A stretch of DNA of 32,916 nt from a bacterium. Its GTDB lineage: Bacteria > Patescibacteriota > Minisyncoccia > Phycocordibacterales > Phycocordibacteraceae. A program made the translations under genes and the position numbers. The stretch is from assembly GCA_021794425.1 (NCBI GenBank), contig JAJYQV010000017.1, forward strand, positions 1 through 32,916, written 5' to 3'. Positions 6,742 through 31,216 of this stretch are shown here, piece after piece. Under the pieces are notes generated by a model that was given only the letters and a program-made list of their open reading frames with translations, was not told the origin of the DNA and did not search any database. Position 1 is the stretch's first letter. The number at the start of each line of letters is the position of its first letter.

Positions 6742-8136
6742 CTAGGTGGGAAGGTTGGCTGGTGCCTCGGCTGTCGCAGATTGGATGCGACCGAGGCTCG
6801 GAGTCTCGACGGCCTGCGACGGAATGTGGTAGATGGTCGCGAGCTCCTCGGTGCTCATGACCATCGCGCTTGACTCGTACGGAACGTGGAAGAACTGGCG
6901 GCGACGGTAGGCGTCGATGAGCCAGGCGAGATACTTTTTCTTGGTCTTCTCGACGCCGAATTCCCACGGGTAATCATCAAAGAGCGTCATCCATCCGCTG
7001 GGCTTCAGGCCGTTCCAGCCCTCGGTGGAGAATTGCTTGAAGATGCCCGTGAGGGCCGAAATGACGATCGGGTCGAATGCTTCAGGTTTTGCGAGATAGA
7101 TACCGCGCGCGCCCACGTCGAATGCGAGCTTTGAAACGTTACGCTCGATGGCGGCAATCATCTCTGATTGTCCTTTCGTTGGGTTGGGGAAACCGTCAGT
7201 CTCGCGCATCTCACCGGTAAATACATCTTTATATTTTACTTTGCTGACCGTGGAGGCACGTATGTCTTTGACCATCTCGTCACCGCGGTGCTTCCAGGTG
7301 TAGTCGGTTGTGGTCTTCTTCATCTTGTGGGTTTTCGGATCCTCGACCATGACCTTCTTGTTGTATTTTTCGCCCTTGTGCATGCGGATGGGTAACTGCA
7401 ACCACAAATACTCGCCTTTCCCCATCGAACCCATGAACTCGATGAGGTTCGCGAGCGGGTCGACCTGCTCGGGTTCCTTTTGCACCTTGTCGAGCCCGTA
7501 CTCGACATAGGTCTTGATCGGGAGGGGGTCCTCTTTCGTGTGAGTGAAGTCACATCCCCAGATTTGCCACTCTTCGGGTGTAGCGGTGATGAGGCGCGTG
7601 TAATCCGGTGCCTCGACGACCTGTACGCCTGGATACTGTGCGTAGAACTGGCTCTCGATGTGGCGACGGAAGCTGGCGCGCGTCCAGATGAAGAAATGCA
7701 CCTGACCCTCAAGCGACGCGATCTCCAAGGACCACCAAGGCCGCACAGCGCCTTTTATGTATTTCTTATACCAGGTCGATTCACCCGGGCCCAGGTGGAG
7801 GCCAGAGAGGACGGCTTCCATCGCGAGTGGGGTCTTCACGAGATTGCGCGGCGGCTTGATCTCAAGCAGTATCGTCTTCTGGGCGGCAATGAATTCCGAA
7901 CGCTTGAGGATGATCCATATTGTCCACGCGCCAGCAATGAGCATGAACGGCAGCCACACGGGCGCCAGGAAGAGCGCCAGCGAGAGCGCCAGCGATACGC
8001 CGTTTGGCATGACGATGAATGAGAGCGTGAGGATCGCGAGCCCGAGGATGAAAATGGGCCACGGCGCGGTTCGGACACCGGCCTTACTCTTTATTTTTTT
8101 CGTCCGGCTTTCGATGAAATCAAGAAACGGCAGCAT
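6742..8136 (-). CDS. Conserved patescibacterial membrane protein (DUF8128-like)
   Basis: Two N-terminal TM segments, then a large domain with FFIWTRASFRRHIESQFYAQYPGVQV; resembles proteins neighbouring VirB4/TraC-like ATPases. Confidence 0.7.
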   Translation of the reverse strand: MLPFLDFIESRTKKIKSKAGVRTAPWPIFILGLAILTLSFIVMPNGVSLALSLALFLAPVWLPFMLIAGAWTIWIILKRSEFIAAQKTILLEIKPPRNLVKTPLAMEAVLSGLHLGPGESTWYKKYIKGAVRPWWSLEIASLEGQVHFFIWTRASFRRHIESQFYAQYPGVQVVEAPDYTRLITATPEEWQIWGCDFTHTKEDPLPIKTYVEYGLDKVQKEPEQVDPLANLIEFMGSMGKGEYLWLQLPIRMHKGEKYNKKVMVEDPKTHKMKKTTTDYTWKHRGDEMVKDIRASTVSKVKYKDVFTGEMRETDGFPNPTKGQSEMIAAIERNVSKLAFDVGARGIYLAKPEAFDPIVISALTGIFKQFSTEGWNGLKPSGWMTLFDDYPWEFGVEKTKKKYLAWLIDAYRRRQFFHVPYESSAMVMSTEELATIYHIPSQAVETPSLGRIQSATAEAPANLPT

Positions 8137-8160
8137 AGGTTACGTAGAGTATAACAAGAA

Positions 8161-8198
8161 AACAGGAGGCCCCCGCCGCGCGGCGGGGGCCTCCTGTT
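8161..8198 (-). terminator. Long perfect hairpin, probable intrinsic terminator
   Basis: AACAGGAGGCCCCCGCCGC|GCGGCGGGGGCCTCCTGTT, 19-bp perfect stem; T-rich (TTTTCTTGTT) on the minus strand after the stem. Confidence 0.8.
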
Positions 8199-8217
8199 CA
8201 TAGAGGGACGTATCTAT

Positions 8218-9306
8218 TTAGGCGGCGGTGTATCGGCCATCTTTCATCCGCTTAAAATAGCGGGGGTCGTTGAGGTTTACGAGGATCGTATTGTCTTTAA
8301 CGAATCGCGCGGTCTTCACCTGCTTGATGATGTCCTCTTTCTTCAGGGGACCCTTCTCTTCAAGCGTCTCGCGGATGACGTCGCGCACGACACCGGGTTT
8401 GTAGCCCCACTCCGTGAGCGCGTAGAGCCCGCGGCCCACGAGTACGAAGCGAGGATCTTTGATGAGCTCGTTGTGGGTCGTTGCGACATGAGCCTTCTTG
8501 GAGAAGAGCGTGCCGATGGCCTTTGAGACGTCTCCGAAGTGCATCGGGGAACCGTGGCGTTTGATGGCGAGATACGCGTAGTCACGGATGCCTTTGATGC
8601 GGATAGCCGGCGCAGTCGCACGGCCCCACTCGGCGAGCGGGTTGCTGCCGATCTTCTTAGAGAGCGAGAGCCAGCGCTTCATGACTTCTTCGTTCTTATA
8701 CGCGTCGTTCACGTCTTTCAGCTCATCAAGAAAACGGCCAAGAAGCTCTCCTTCGGGAATGACCTCATCATCGGGAAGCGAAGCGTAGAGGCGCGAAAGC
8801 GCGTCATGGATGTTTTTCGCGGTCGCGGCATCAATGTGCCAGCGTGAGAGGAAATCATTCGTCTCGCGTTCGCGATAAAAAGACGAATCAAGCACCAGCA
8901 AGAAACGAAAGCGGTTCCGGGTCTTCTCGTCTTTCCCGACAGAGGCGAGCAGTTCCTCTTCAGGCACGATGACGCCCATCGAGTGGATGTAGCGTGCGAA
9001 CTCTTCAAAGGCGGGGCGCGCCTCTTTGAAGACTTTGCTCGCGCGTATGGCGTCGAGGCCGGCCGCTTCGATCTGGCGGACGCGCTCGCGCGTGATGCTT
9101 GAGCGATCGCCGATCGCCTCAAGCGTCTCGTGCGCGGCGCTCGTGCCGAGGCCGAAACGGCGGATGAGAACCTCGCGGGCGCGTTCCGGCGCGGTGGCGA
9201 GAAGCTTCTTCACCAGCGTTACATTATCAAATGAGAACGAAACGGCCGCAGCTGATTTCGCTGTGTCGCGCTTCTTCGCACTCTTCGTCTCGAGGGTCTT
9301 GCTCAT
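8218..9306 (-). CDS. Sigma-70 region 4-like HTH plus HARE-HTH domain protein
   Basis: EVLIRRFGLGTSAAHETLEAIGDRSSITRERVRQIEAAGLDAIR (sigma region 4); C-term MHFGDVSKAIGTLFSKKAHVATTHNELIKDPRFVLVGRGLYALTEWGY (HARE-HTH). Confidence 0.85.
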   Translation of the reverse strand: MSKTLETKSAKKRDTAKSAAAVSFSFDNVTLVKKLLATAPERAREVLIRRFGLGTSAAHETLEAIGDRSSITRERVRQIEAAGLDAIRASKVFKEARPAFEEFARYIHSMGVIVPEEELLASVGKDEKTRNRFRFLLVLDSSFYRERETNDFLSRWHIDAATAKNIHDALSRLYASLPDDEVIPEGELLGRFLDELKDVNDAYKNEEVMKRWLSLSKKIGSNPLAEWGRATAPAIRIKGIRDYAYLAIKRHGSPMHFGDVSKAIGTLFSKKAHVATTHNELIKDPRFVLVGRGLYALTEWGYKPGVVRDVIRETLEEKGPLKKEDIIKQVKTARFVKDNTILVNLNDPRYFKRMKDGRYTAA

Positions 9307-9353: not shown

Positions 9354-11888
9354 TTATACCACGAGATTTAGAATTCTGCTCGGCACATAGATGACCCGCT
9401 TCGGTTCCTTATCTTTCAATTGCGCTGCGACGGCCGGAATCGCTCGGGCTGCCGCGACGATGGCCCCTTCGGGCGCGTCCACGGCAACCTGGACCGAGCC
9501 GCGCCGCTTGCCGTTCACCTGCACGGCAAGCTCGCAGGTGTCGCTTGCGAGCACGGACTCGTCATACGCCGGCCACGGCGCGGCGTGGACGCTCCCCTCC
9601 TCGCCGAGCCTTTCCCAGAGGTGTTCGGCGAGGTGCGGCGCAAACGGCGCGAGCATGATGACGAGCGCCGAGAGCGCCGGCGCGAGGACGTCCGCTGCGG
9701 CCTCGAGCTCGTTCAGGAGAATCATGAGCGCCGCGACGCCGGTGTTGAATTTGAACCGGTCGCCATCTTCGGTGATTTTCAAGTTCGCGCGCGCGAGTGC
9801 CTGCGCCGCCGCCCCCGATGCGTTCTGTAGAAGTTCGACTTCTACAGCCGAGGCCGGGTCTCTGTGGCACTCGACGAGGCGCGCGATGCGTTCGAGAAAC
9901 TTGCGCATGGAGGCGACGCCGTCGAGATTCCACGGATAGTTCCCCGGCTCGTTGTAGGGGCCGATAAAAGCGAGATAGAGCCGCACCGCGTCAGCGCCAT
10001 ATTCCCGTACAAACTCGTCCGGGTTCACGACGTTTCCTTTCGACTTGCTCATCTTCTGCCCGTCGGGGCCCATGATGAGCCCGCGATTGAAGCGTTCGGT
10101 AAACGGCTCGTCTACCGGCACAAGATCCAGATCGTGGAGAGCCTTTGTGAAGAAGCGCGCGTAGAGGAGGTGCATGGTCGTGTGTTCGCTCCCGCCGGAA
10201 TAGCGATCGACCGGTAGCCACTTTTTCATAAGCGTCGCGTCGGAGAAGTCGTGCGGATCTTTCGGGTCAAGATACCGTAAGAAGTACCACGACGAATCCA
10301 CAAAAGTATCGAGCGTGTCATACTCCGGCGTCCATCCCTCGCCGAAGAGGCGCGTCACACGCTCCTTGAGCTCTTTTGACGACGCGAGCGGCGCTTCGCC
10401 GGTCGGCGTGAAGTCTACGTCAGTCGGCAGAAGCCACGGCAGGTGCTCAGAGGGGACCGCATGCGGGTTCCCTTCTGGGTCATAGACGACCGGTATCGGG
10501 CACCCCCAGTAGCGCTGACGGCTCACGAGCCAGTCGCGCAAGCGGTAGTTGGTCGCACGTTCCCCGCCGGAGGCCGCGACGATGTCCCACTTCGCTTCTT
10601 CGCTTTTTCGTCCAGTGAAATCTCCAGAGTTGATCAGCGTGCCGTCTTTTGTGTACGGGCCATGTTGAATTACTTCTCCTGCAAAAAGTGCTGAAGCTTG
10701 CTCCGAATCAAATTCGCCAGACATCAAAGTTTCTGCCGTACTTTGCGCAATACTTGCGACGAAGGGGTTAACGACTGATTTTATTGGCAGGTTGAACTTC
10801 TGTGCAAACGCATAGTCGCGCTCGTCGTGGGCGGGCACCGCCATGACCGCGCCGGTGCCGTAAGAAGCGAGCACGTAGTCGGCGACGAAGACCGGGATCT
10901 CTTCCCCGTTTGCGGGATTCACCGCCCTCACCCCCTTGAGTTCGACGCCCGTCTTCTCCTTGTTCTCGCTGCGCTCCCGCTCGGTCTTCTTCGCGGTCGC
11001 GGCTACGTAATCCTGTACCTCTTTTTTGTTTGAAACGGTATCAAGCAGCGTCGCGACAAGGGGATGCTCGGGCGCAAGCACCACGTAGGTCACGCCGAAG
11101 AGGGTGTCCGGGCGGGTCGTGAAGACAGTAATGATCGGTTGGACATCCGATGTCACTCCTGCCGAAGTTAGGACATCGGATGTCCTAACTTCGAAATCGA
11201 GTTTGGCACCCTCGCTCTTGCCGATCCACGCGCGCTGCGCGTCTTTGATCTCTTCGCGCCACGGGAGCGCGTCGAGCCCGGCAAGCAGGCGGTCGGCGTA
11301 ATCGGTGATCTTGAGGAACCATTGCGTAAGACGCTTCTCCTCAACCTCGGTGCCACAGCGCTCGCAGCGGCCGTCGGTGATCTGCTCGTTGGCGAGGACG
11401 GTCTTGTCCTTCGGACACCACTTCACTGCCGCGTTACGGCGCTCAGCGAGCTTGTGTTCGAAGAGCTTCGTGAAGAGCCACTGCGTCCACTGGTAGTAGC
11501 TCGGATCGCAGGCGATGACTTCCTTGCTCCAGTCAAACGAGGCACCCATGCTCATGAGTTGTGCGCGCATGTGCTCGATATTCTTATAGGTCCACTCTCT
11601 CGGGTCGACTCCGTGCTTGAGGGCGGCGTTCTCGGCCGGCAGGCCGAAAGCGTCGAAGCCGATCGGGAAGAGTACGTTCTTGCCGCGCGCGCGCAAGAGG
11701 CGTGCATAGATGTCGGTCACAGCAAACGCGTACCAGTGCCCGATGTGCAGATCGCCGGAGGGATACGGGAACTCGACGAGGAGGTAATACGGCTCTTTCG
11801 CTTCGCCCGAGAGATCAGCGCGGTAGAGGTCAAGCTCAGTCCATTTTTCTTGAGCCTTCTTCTCTATCTCACGATGATCGTACGCCAT
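9354..11888 (-). CDS. leuS: Leucyl-tRNA synthetase
   Basis: FPYPSGDLHIGHWYAFAVTDIYARL, TTRPDTLFGVTYVVLAPEHPL, MSKSKGNVVNP; start at MAYDHREIEKKAQ. Confidence 0.97.
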   Translation of the reverse strand: MAYDHREIEKKAQEKWTELDLYRADLSGEAKEPYYLLVEFPYPSGDLHIGHWYAFAVTDIYARLLRARGKNVLFPIGFDAFGLPAENAALKHGVDPREWTYKNIEHMRAQLMSMGASFDWSKEVIACDPSYYQWTQWLFTKLFEHKLAERRNAAVKWCPKDKTVLANEQITDGRCERCGTEVEEKRLTQWFLKITDYADRLLAGLDALPWREEIKDAQRAWIGKSEGAKLDFEVRTSDVLTSAGVTSDVQPIITVFTTRPDTLFGVTYVVLAPEHPLVATLLDTVSNKKEVQDYVAATAKKTERERSENKEKTGVELKGVRAVNPANGEEIPVFVADYVLASYGTGAVMAVPAHDERDYAFAQKFNLPIKSVVNPFVASIAQSTAETLMSGEFDSEQASALFAGEVIQHGPYTKDGTLINSGDFTGRKSEEAKWDIVAASGGERATNYRLRDWLVSRQRYWGCPIPVVYDPEGNPHAVPSEHLPWLLPTDVDFTPTGEAPLASSKELKERVTRLFGEGWTPEYDTLDTFVDSSWYFLRYLDPKDPHDFSDATLMKKWLPVDRYSGGSEHTTMHLLYARFFTKALHDLDLVPVDEPFTERFNRGLIMGPDGQKMSKSKGNVVNPDEFVREYGADAVRLYLAFIGPYNEPGNYPWNLDGVASMRKFLERIARLVECHRDPASAVEVELLQNASGAAAQALARANLKITEDGDRFKFNTGVAALMILLNELEAAADVLAPALSALVIMLAPFAPHLAEHLWERLGEEGSVHAAPWPAYDESVLASDTCELAVQVNGKRRGSVQVAVDAPEGAIVAAARAIPAVAAQLKDKEPKRVIYVPSRILNLVV
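9826..9846. repeat. Palindrome family A, copy 2, inside leuS
   Basis: TGTAGAAGTTCGACTTCTACA, identical to 1595-1615; encodes VEVELL in leuS. Confidence 0.85.
11141..11193. repeat. Palindrome family B inside leuS: truncated copy (11141-11154) plus full copy (11163-11193)
   Basis: CGAAGTTAGGACATC-G-GATGTCCTAACTTCG, perfect 15-bp stem; GGACATCCGATGTC repeated 9 nt away. Confidence 0.85.
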
Positions 11889-15800: not shown

Positions 15801-15968
15801 CATGAAGCAGTAGATCGCTCAAAAGGTACGGCGTAATTTTCTGTACCATGAGGGCACTTCTTGTCTTCTAGTTCGCTTCGCTCACAAGAAGACAAAGTCG
15901 CTGGAAATTCGCTTCGCCCTCGCGCCCTCGCGCTGCGGGAGCCCTTTTTTACGATATCCTGCTTCATG
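15801..15968. repeat. Putative MITE-like/foldback element filling the atpD-atpC spacer
   Basis: Terminal inverted repeats CATGAAGCAGTAGATCG (15801-15817) / CGATATCCTGCTTCATG (15952-15968), 15 of 17 matching; internal inverted repeat TTGTCTTCT...AGAAGACAA (15861-15869/15887-15895). Confidence 0.55.
15844..15870 (+). repeat. 27-nt dispersed repeat, copy 1
   Basis: TACCATGAGGGCACTTCTTGTCTTCTA, 24/27 identical to 30360-30386. Confidence 0.7.
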
Positions 15969-17656: not shown

Positions 17657-17663
17657 AGAATTT

Positions 17664-18068
17664 TTATACGGTATCTTCATAGGTGAAATTTACTCGGACA
17701 AGTTCGGCAAGCAATGCTTTGAACATTGGTTTTGCGATCACGCCAGTCTTTTGTGTCAGGCGTCGCCGGTCGACAAGACGTAATTGCGACAGGTTTGCCA
17801 CCGCCTCGCGACCACTTGCCGAACCGATGGAGAAGTAATACTTTCCCTTTTTCGGTTTTGTCGTGAGCGGTATGACGAGACAGGTGTCGAGGTTAAACTT
17901 CTTCACGATGATAACCGGGCGCTCGAATGAACCCCCACGCCCGTCAACCTCATACCCCACATTCGCGCCGAGTTTGCACCACCAGATGTCTCGCTCATCG
18001 AACACGATCCCCGAGGTGGTTTCGTGAGCAGCCTGTTTGACGCCAATCCAACGGAGGAAATCTTTCAT
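17664..18068 (-). CDS. PemK/MazF family toxin (type II TA-like)
   Basis: RDIWWCKLGANVGYEVDGRGGSFERPVIIVKKFNLDTCLVIPLTTKPKKGKYYFSIGS...AVANLSQLRLVDRRRLTQKTG; start 2 nt after atpG stop (TGATCATG). Confidence 0.9.
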   Translation of the reverse strand: MKDFLRWIGVKQAAHETTSGIVFDERDIWWCKLGANVGYEVDGRGGSFERPVIIVKKFNLDTCLVIPLTTKPKKGKYYFSIGSASGREAVANLSQLRLVDRRRLTQKTGVIAKPMFKALLAELVRVNFTYEDTV

Positions 18069-25426: not shown

Positions 25427-25477
25427 GCGAAGCGAAACACGGAATCCGCCTTTGGCGGATTCCGTGTTTCGCTTCGC
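25427..25477. repeat. Perfect 24-bp foldback with TTT loop
   Basis: GCGAAGCGAAACACGGAATCCGCC-TTT-GGCGGATTCCGTGTTTCGCTTCGC. Confidence 0.9.
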
Positions 25478-25488
25478 TGCTGTTGCGG

Positions 25489-30326: not shown

Positions 30327-30363
30327 GGTGGACCGTACAGGATTCGAACCTGCGACCCCTACC
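30327..30363 (-). pseudogene. tRNA-Ala 3' fragment A (T-arm, acceptor 3' strand, encoded CCA)
   Basis: + strand ggtggaccgtacaggattcgaacctgcgacccc identical to the 3' half of the intact tRNA-Ala(UGC); anticodon arm missing. Confidence 0.85.
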
Positions 30364-30386
30364 ACAAGGGCACTTCTTGTTTTCTA
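30360..30386 (+). repeat. 27-nt dispersed repeat, copy 2
   Basis: TACCACAAGGGCACTTCTTGTTTTCTA, 24/27 identical to 15844-15870. Confidence 0.7.
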
Positions 30387-30457: not shown

Positions 30458-30868
30458 TTATCTTGAGGTGGGAGATGGCCCCTTCGCTTTCCAGCGTCGA
30501 TACAAGAACAGCAACGAGAGGAGGACTCCCGTAGAAAGTAATGCTTTGAGAGCTTCGTTTGCCAACATCAGTACGGGTCCTACCCATGGCGCTTGGAACG
30601 TCTTCAAGCCTACGTGAAGGTAGCAGGGATCCGCTCGATCGATTTTGTAACTTGTCGTGTACAAGCCTAGGGGATCAAGAGAAAAAGGCATATTCCATCG
30701 ATGGCAAAGATAAAAGTCATTCGTACCTGTACCAGTAAATAACTGAATGTTGATGGATGAGTCGGCGGACAGATTGAATGTCATGAATATTACAAACGCC
30801 AACGGAAAGAGCACCCATATGTTTTTGGTTAAGAGGAAATGCAACCCTTTCGAGGGGACATTGAACAT
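30458..30868 (-). CDS. Orphan small membrane protein (136 aa, ~2 TM)
   Basis: MFNVPSKGLHFLLTKNIWVLFPLAFVIFMTFNLSADSS...LLSTGVLLSLLFLYRRWKAKGPSPTSR; no antisense gene, lower GC than surroundings. Confidence 0.6.
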   Translation of the reverse strand: MFNVPSKGLHFLLTKNIWVLFPLAFVIFMTFNLSADSSINIQLFTGTGTNDFYLCHRWNMPFSLDPLGLYTTSYKIDRADPCYLHVGLKTFQAPWVGPVLMLANEALKALLSTGVLLSLLFLYRRWKAKGPSPTSR

Positions 30869-30940
30869 AGTTCAAATTGTATCACGGGACTGAATATGCC
30901 GAGAATCTGAAACCTTGCCGAGTGGAGCGAGGCACAAGTT

Positions 30941-30953
30941 TACCAACTGAGCT
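30941..30953 (-). pseudogene. tRNA-Ala D-arm fragment D
   Basis: + strand taccaactgagct, matches D-arm of the intact gene, 4 nt from fragment B. Confidence 0.5.
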
Positions 30954-30957
30954 GGTT

Positions 30958-31013
30958 GTGGACCGTACAGGATTCGAACCTGCGACCCCCTCATTGCAAA
31001 TGAGGTGCTCTAC
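30958..31013 (-). pseudogene. tRNA-Ala(UGC) fragment B (acceptor 3', T-arm, anticodon arm, to D-loop)
   Basis: gtggaccgtacaggattcgaacctgcgaccccctcattgcaaatgaggtgctctac identical to the intact gene; stops at TAC in the D-loop. Confidence 0.92.
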
Positions 31014-31029
31014 TGCAAGGAGCGAAGGC

Positions 31030-31054
31030 GAACGGCGCGTCCGCGCGCCAGTTC
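31030..31054. repeat. GC-rich hairpin in the tRNA-Ala insert
   Basis: GAACGGCGCG-tccg-CGCGCC(a)GTTC, 10-bp stem with one bulge. Confidence 0.65.
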
Positions 31055-31074
31055 TAGCCGAGCGACGCAGCAGA

Positions 31075-31196
31075 AAGCTTTTTGAGCATTTGAGAATTTT
31101 GGTGGACCGTACAGGATTCGAACCTGCGACCCCCTCATTGCAAATGAGGTGCTCTACCAACTGAGCTAACGGCCCACCAAAATTCTCAAAAAGCTT
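31075..31196. repeat. Inverted repeat enclosing the tRNA-Ala(UGC) gene
   Basis: AAGCTTTTTGAG[catttgag]AATTTTGGTGG (31075-31105) and CCACCAAAATTCTCAAAAAGCTT (31174-31196); arms identical except for the 8-nt insertion. Confidence 0.9.
31100..31175 (-). tRNA. tRNA-Ala(UGC), CCA encoded
   Basis: GGGCCGTTAGCTCAGTTGGTAGAGCACCTCATTTGCAATGAGGGGGTCGCAGGTTCGAATCCTGTACGGTCCACCA; anticodon loop TTTGCAA. Confidence 0.95.
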
Positions 31197-31216
31197 ACCA
31201 ACTGAGCTAACGGCCC
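31196..31216 (-). pseudogene. tRNA-Ala 5' fragment C (acceptor 5' strand plus D-arm)
   Basis: + strand taccaactgagctaacggccc identical to the 5' end of the intact gene; joins fragment B to make a full tRNA. Confidence 0.92.

Follow-up and report, generated by a model that had tools for sequence, protein, structure and literature searches.

A tRNA-Ala gene split at its D-loop, probably by a two-hairpin mobile element that encloses an intact tRNA-Ala, and recurrence of the same break in related Patescibacteria

The only complete tRNA-Ala(UGC) gene found in the genome lies inside another tRNA-Ala(UGC) gene, which is broken in its D-loop. The window analysed here, the whole stretch of 32,916 nt, is contig C5 of a 687,745-base genome (G000) in 45 contigs. 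The arrangement probably arose through entry of a short, non-autonomous mobile element with two hairpins into the resident tRNA-Ala(UGC), and the intact tRNA-Ala in the element's first hairpin would now act as the functional gene. The split is not a chance event, since the same one recurs in many relatives. The features of the locus are collected in Table 1.

Table 1. Features of the split tRNA-Ala locus, all on the minus strand of the window
Feature	Position	Strand	Basis
Resident tRNA-Ala(UGC), 5′ part, positions 1-21, GGGCCGTTAGCTCAGTTGGTA	31216-31196	minus	100% identity with positions 1-21 of the intact gene
Inserted two-hairpin element, 185 nt, from after GGTA to terminal GTA	31011-31195	minus	Boundaries from the rejoined tRNA; other split tRNA genes with the same boundaries
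Hairpin 1, 5′ arm AAGCTTTTTGAG; first A is A21 of the split tRNA	31185-31196	minus	Complementary to 31075-31086
Intact tRNA-Ala(UGC), CCA encoded, within the hairpin 1 loop	31175-31100	minus	ARAGORN; Rfam tRNA, 72.6 bits
Hairpin 1, 3′ arm CTCAAAAAGCTT	31075-31086	minus	Complementary to 31185-31196
Hairpin 2, GC-rich, closed by CTGC (31073-31070)/GCAG (31016-31013)	31013-31073	minus	88% identical copy at G000:C33
TA repeat, right end of the insert (GTA counting 31013)	31011-31012	minus	Sequence read directly
Resident tRNA-Ala(UGC), 3′ part, positions 22-74, without CCA	31010-30958	minus	Identical to the intact gene
Orphan D-arm fragment AGCTCAGTTGGTA	30941-30953	minus	
Hairpin AACTTGTGCCTCGCTCCACTCGGCAAGGTTT, 3′ of the orphan D-arm; resembles the hairpin beside the C33 element	30910-30940 (extent approximate)	minus	
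Extra tRNA-Ala 3′ fragment, positions 43-76, with CCA	30359-30323	minus	13 bits

The 5′ part of the split gene begins 12 nt after the stop of ddl. Rejoined, the outer halves score as tRNA-Ala(tgc), and a 56-nt exact repeat at the locus was verified. An earlier sequence-only reading had placed an intact tRNA-Ala(UGC) within the D-loop of a split copy, which direct reading of the sequence, ARAGORN and Rfam bear out, and had held that the joined fragments give a complete tRNA identical to the intact gene, as the match at 74 of 74 positions confirms. It had also described the junction repeat as TAC. A repeat is indeed present, but it is better read as TA, or as GTA if taken as a recombination core, because in most intergenic copies of the element the shared bases are no more than TA on the left and GTA on the right. 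The 3′ part as delimited in that reading (fragment B, 35.1 bits as a partial tRNA) begins three bases earlier than ours, because the GTA at 31013-31011 also terminates the insert.

The flanks of the inner tRNA-Ala pair as an extended stem of hairpin 1, as seen both in the inverted repeats (31075-31091/31180-31196, 17 nt, 94%; 31089-31110/31169-31190, 22 nt, 95%) and in the fold of the strand, which is far more stable than that of shuffled sequences (z = -6.1). Hairpin 2, which stops two bases short of position 22 of the split gene, contains the core of subfamily A (CGTCGCTCGG...TTCGCTCCTTGCAG), a group whose copies were recovered by their own sequence. No consensus promoter or terminator was found at the tRNA-Ala locus. 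Three further features of the window are recorded here. The repeat TACCAYRAGGGCACTTCTTGTYTTCTA occurs at 15844-15870 and at 30360-30386, where it adjoins the extra 3′ tRNA-Ala fragment. Between the tRNA fragments lies an open frame of 136 aa (30458-30868, minus strand), without a Pfam match and without a relative among the loci fetched. Finally, a perfect 24-bp inverted repeat with a 3-nt loop (25427-25477) is found near the 3′ end of a tRNA-Ala(GGC) at 25487.

Downstream of ddl there is a tRNA-Ala(UGC), often only 12-80 nt away and unbroken, in most of the genus loci fetched and in several loci of other families in the order (L012, L013, L019, L026, L027). The 5′ half of the split gene occupies this ddl-adjacent site. 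Its 3′ half resembles L012 in having no CCA, in contrast to the inner gene with its CCA and inverted-repeat flanks; the split gene is therefore the resident one, and the remainder was added. The left junction with the inverted-repeat-flanked tRNA is common to the window and G001. Outer halves are decayed and the inner gene is kept intact in G025 and G001, and the outer halves in the window have probably lost their function.

The insert belongs to a family of two-hairpin elements of 73-115 nt. A second copy of its GC-rich part in the same genome (contig C33, 88% over 68 nt) stands directly after a D-arm ending in GGTA and is followed by AACTTGTGCC; at 30953-30931 of the window the same D-arm is joined straight to AACTTGTGCC, and this stretch is the unoccupied form of the C33 element's site. 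A scan of 93 genomes of the genus for a D-arm with GGTA not followed by G22 matched nine, of which eight are split tRNA genes, and the reversed control gave none. With wider searches, 21 split tRNA genes were tabulated, and a search with the element sequence added four, so that about 25 are now counted, covering 13 isoacceptors in 20 genomes; where the record of a carrier is named, it belongs to the Patescibacteria, for example Candidatus Kaiserbacteria and Parcubacteria. Together with the unbroken tRNA-Ala just after ddl in relatives, where the sequence-only reading had advised looking for one, these splits at the same point support its view of an insertion into the D-loop of a resident tRNA; they also answer its call to look for the element beside other tRNA genes. 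As a whole, its insertion reading was largely right.

The break point is identical among the tabulated genes. The left side is GGTA in 21/21, the right side is position 22 (at C33, a second element), and the insert ends in GTA in 19/21; the two exceptions are an element of G028 that ends in ATA and, in G140, an unrelated palindrome of 45 nt. The latter lies at the same D-loop point of a tRNA-Ala(TGC) in another family (L109, 1516-1560), and an intact tRNA-Ala(TGC) of different sequence is found 38 nt downstream of that split copy. Some sites hold elements in tandem (three at STA_55 Lys; also WY5 Lys, G111 Thr and G075 Ala-GGC), and different elements are met at one site. Hairpin 1 begins exactly at A21 in 16 of the 20 other cassettes, and its arms differ in sequence between cassettes yet remain complementary; this retention of position and pairing despite divergent arms suggests that the hairpin itself matters. 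The cassettes are too divergent for one joint alignment usable for a covariance model. Nostoc loci without a tRNA nearby (9 of the 19 genome-wide matches) were discarded from the junction scan, as were several ordinary tRNA-Val genes with GGTACGAGC from the order-level matches. The junction pattern had no match in viral contigs, on which ground a viral origin was rejected.

Most of these searches presupposed the left junction, hence the use of the element sequence alone as a bias control. Subfamily A (CGBCGCTCGG...CTCGCTYCTYSCAGTA) gave five matches in the 93 genomes and none in the control; all five copies are in tRNA D-loops, one of them in a tRNA-Gln with a quite different D-arm sequence. 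Subfamily B (TTGCCTCG...CTCGGCTCGYTTG) gave 25 matches, of which eight were found by reading to be in tRNA D-loops, the rest being mostly intergenic at TA; its hairpin 1 starts at T/A in 17 copies and its right end is GTA in 24. Because subfamily B copies are mostly intergenic, the family is not confined to tRNA genes, and strict D-loop specificity of the whole family was rejected. It behaves as a hairpin element that is dispersed and takes TA or GTA as its target, and tRNA D-loops are a strong hot spot for it, given that all tRNA genes together make up about 0.5% of such a genome.

An intact gene for the same isoacceptor was located by ARAGORN within 200 nt of the split copy in 20 of the 21 tabulated cases, and the cognate of the 21st, G106 Thr-GGT, was seen by eye with an intron-like insert. 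The intact cognate is inside the element at four loci, within hairpin 1 in the window and within hairpin 2 in G075, G025 and G433. The simplest reading is survivor selection, in which splitting is tolerated only with an intact copy brought along or already adjacent. In the mechanism that we favour, the element would enter at the TA of the D-loop (GGTA/GAGC), presumably moving as DNA, and would leave TA (or GTA) on both sides; the inner tRNA-Ala(UGC) in hairpin 1 would now be the functional gene and the outer halves a dead copy. Family members sit at intergenic TA sites and, far above chance expectation, in tRNA D-loops. A split in an essential tRNA gene should kill the cell, and therefore only insertions with an intact same-isoacceptor copy inside or beside them would persist. 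Against this account, neither excision nor a circle nor an empty allele from the same strain was seen.

The origin of the intact copy is less clear-cut, and its main rival explanation is duplication followed by insertion, because tandem duplication is visible beside the split genes of three relatives. A redundant, often partial tRNA copy would have arisen by tandem duplication, the element would have entered its D-arm later, and the nesting would be due to a template switch at the hairpin, with the element never having carried a tRNA. At STA_55 Lys, WY5 Lys and G433 Val, the split copy and the intact one share a duplicated leader (0/300 shuffles as good), and duplication appears to have contributed at least at these loci. 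Many split copies are moreover only partial and directly beside the intact gene, and in G025 the tRNA-Ala 3′ part and an element arm form a tandem repeat of 100 nt, with GTA at its start and end (L075, 4036-4286). The simple tandem duplication that the sequence-only reading offered as an alternative is thus clear beside three split genes; however, the other split copies tested gave no signal of leader duplication, the leader and trailer of the inner gene in the window bear no resemblance to what flanks the outer halves, and in four nested cases the enclosed cognate differs in sequence from the resident. We give the duplication-first account as a whole a substantial but minority chance.

In these four cases the inner tRNA and the broken resident share an anticodon but not their sequence. 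Identity between inner and resident copies is 53/75 for Ile-TAT on contig C40 of this genome, 63/74 for G083 Ala-CGC and 69/74 for G045 Ala-TGC, a range of 71-93% among the three measured; the differing cognate of G111 Thr-GGT was read by eye. Four missing anticodon-loop bases were supplied by us in rejoining the G083 and G045 residents, so that their anticodons are deduced from the remaining sequence. Such cognates are not easily explained by local duplication. The C40, G083 and G045 residents are broken in the anticodon loop and have other flanks, and they may reflect a process separate from that of the D-loop cases. At C40 an intact tRNA-Ile(TAT) lies in the anticodon loop of the broken tRNA-Ile(TAT), with TAC on both sides (L072, ~17660-17870). 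On contig C28 of the same genome, the anticodon loop of a tRNA is interrupted by ~200 nt of intron-like sequence (L073, ~8050-8330); to the eye this insert is similar to a group I intron, but it had no Rfam match, and the same gene in G106 resembles tRNA-Thr(GGT). Since the inner and outer copies in the window are identical, its sequence does not mark the inner tRNA as imported. That the intact tRNA arrived with the element is, in our judgement, an even bet, and its placement into the hairpin by local duplication or template switching is somewhat less probable. The broader proposal of mobile tRNA-replacement cassettes in Patescibacteria, in which a hairpin element would bring a same-isoacceptor tRNA, sometimes foreign, and break and replace an essential gene in one step, is tentative and rather unlikely.

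Two other explanations take the outer halves or the assembly differently. If the insert were an intron, it would be removed and the outer halves joined in RNA to give a second tRNA-Ala, in keeping with the perfect outer halves in the window and G075 and with one fixed break point across many tRNAs. Against this, an intact cognate accompanies every split gene, G025 and G001 show decay of the outer halves, and in many split copies the acceptor strand is absent or little of the 3′ part is left, which makes an intron very improbable. A catalytic group I or II intron was rejected in particular, as neither the window locus nor the other split loci scanned had an Rfam match. Misassembly of tRNA repeats, also raised by the sequence-only reading, could be suspected in a genome of 45 contigs, the more so as the contigs of some relatives end at such repeats (G004:C33, G014:C36). 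It is scarcely credible given the equivalent nested structures in G075, G025 and G433, the left junction shared with G001 and the G022 split, which sits in a four-contig genome.

The statement that no integrase or transposase lies in the window holds for Y1 transposases, tyrosine recombinases and reverse transcriptases, which a genome-wide search matched on other contigs. In this genome there are seven Y1 transposase hits, of which five are RAYT-like, and RAYT-like genes abound in the genus. G022, a 100% complete carrier, lacks Y1 genes, and none is above threshold in G025; reverse transcriptases are present in 3 of 12 carriers, and one Xer-like tyrosine recombinase is found in nearly all 20 genomes tested, carriers or not. 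No mobilising enzyme proved common to the carriers, and each of the three types was rejected as general mobiliser, being either inconsistently present or not carrier-specific. The element did not match the flanks of the seven Y1 genes, where the palindromes are unrelated, and an origin from RAYT/REP sequences was rejected on the same ground for the RAYTs of this genome. The window does hold CTGTAGAAGTTCGACTTCTACA palindromes (1594-1626 and 9825-9857), the same as those flanking a RAYT-like gene on contig C29, which are probably RAYT-linked REPs.

Large integrating elements classically land in tRNA genes, as a rule at the anticodon loop, T-loop or 3′ end. What is new here is that the window case is one instance of a recurrent element family with a hot spot in the tRNA D-loop, and its recurrence in about 20 related genomes points to an undescribed family of tRNA-invading mobile DNA. 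No description of it was found in the open-access literature, which was the scope of our search. A miniature element with its hot spot in D-loops, with tandem arrays that have a fixed end triplet and with intact tRNAs in its hairpins would be another means of invading tRNA genes and turning them over; the large bacterial group concerned, to which this ultra-small bacterium belongs, has very small genomes. The family also accounts for fragmented tRNA-like repeats, a source of confusion in annotation and assembly, and it is a defined target for finding the mobilising enzyme.

Among known systems, integron cassettes are tandem short units with folded ends, one entry point and the end triplet GTT. 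The element shares this organisation, with GTA as its fixed triplet, but its cargo is inside the hairpins and intergenic copies exist; in place of an integron-type integrase, nearly all 20 genomes tested, with or without split genes, have one tyrosine recombinase that looks Xer-like. IS200/IS605 derivatives have hairpins near both ends, no terminal inverted repeats and a short fixed target. By inspection the element likewise has subterminal hairpins, no terminal inverted repeats and a short fixed target, but the Y1 transposase is missing from some carriers and TA or GTA stands on both sides. The TA on the left (17/25) and GTA on the right (24/25) of subfamily B may recall a miniature element of the Tc1/mariner-IS630 type, and the ends (AGC.../...CAG) are by inspection not inverted repeats. 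Transposing tRNA introns of archaea place related sequences in several tRNA genes at a fixed point, from which they are spliced (PMC10714607, a review). Different tRNA genes are also interrupted at one fixed point here, but the broken copies decay next to an intact gene that is retained. Mitochondrial double-hairpin, or repetitive hairpin, elements occupy rRNA and intergenic sites (PMC2800124). They too have two adjacent hairpins, tandem copies and insertions into RNA genes, whereas the present element is bacterial, has a fixed point in the tRNA D-loop and can hold a whole tRNA gene. REPINs and REP elements are mobilised by RAYT transposases (PMC3116915), and GTAG-tagged REPs are known (PMC3733652). 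Like these, the element is miniature, non-autonomous, dispersed, hairpin-forming, gene-free and found in tandem clusters, and some copies end in GTAG followed by TA; it differs in having two unlike hairpins instead of an inverted REP pair, in its D-loop hot spot, in being unmatched beside the RAYTs of its own genome and in having a complete carrier, G022, without a Y1 gene. REP-RAYT systems, integron cassettes and catalytic introns thus each fail in at least one defining feature, and by analogy the element would work most like REPINs and other miniature hairpin elements.
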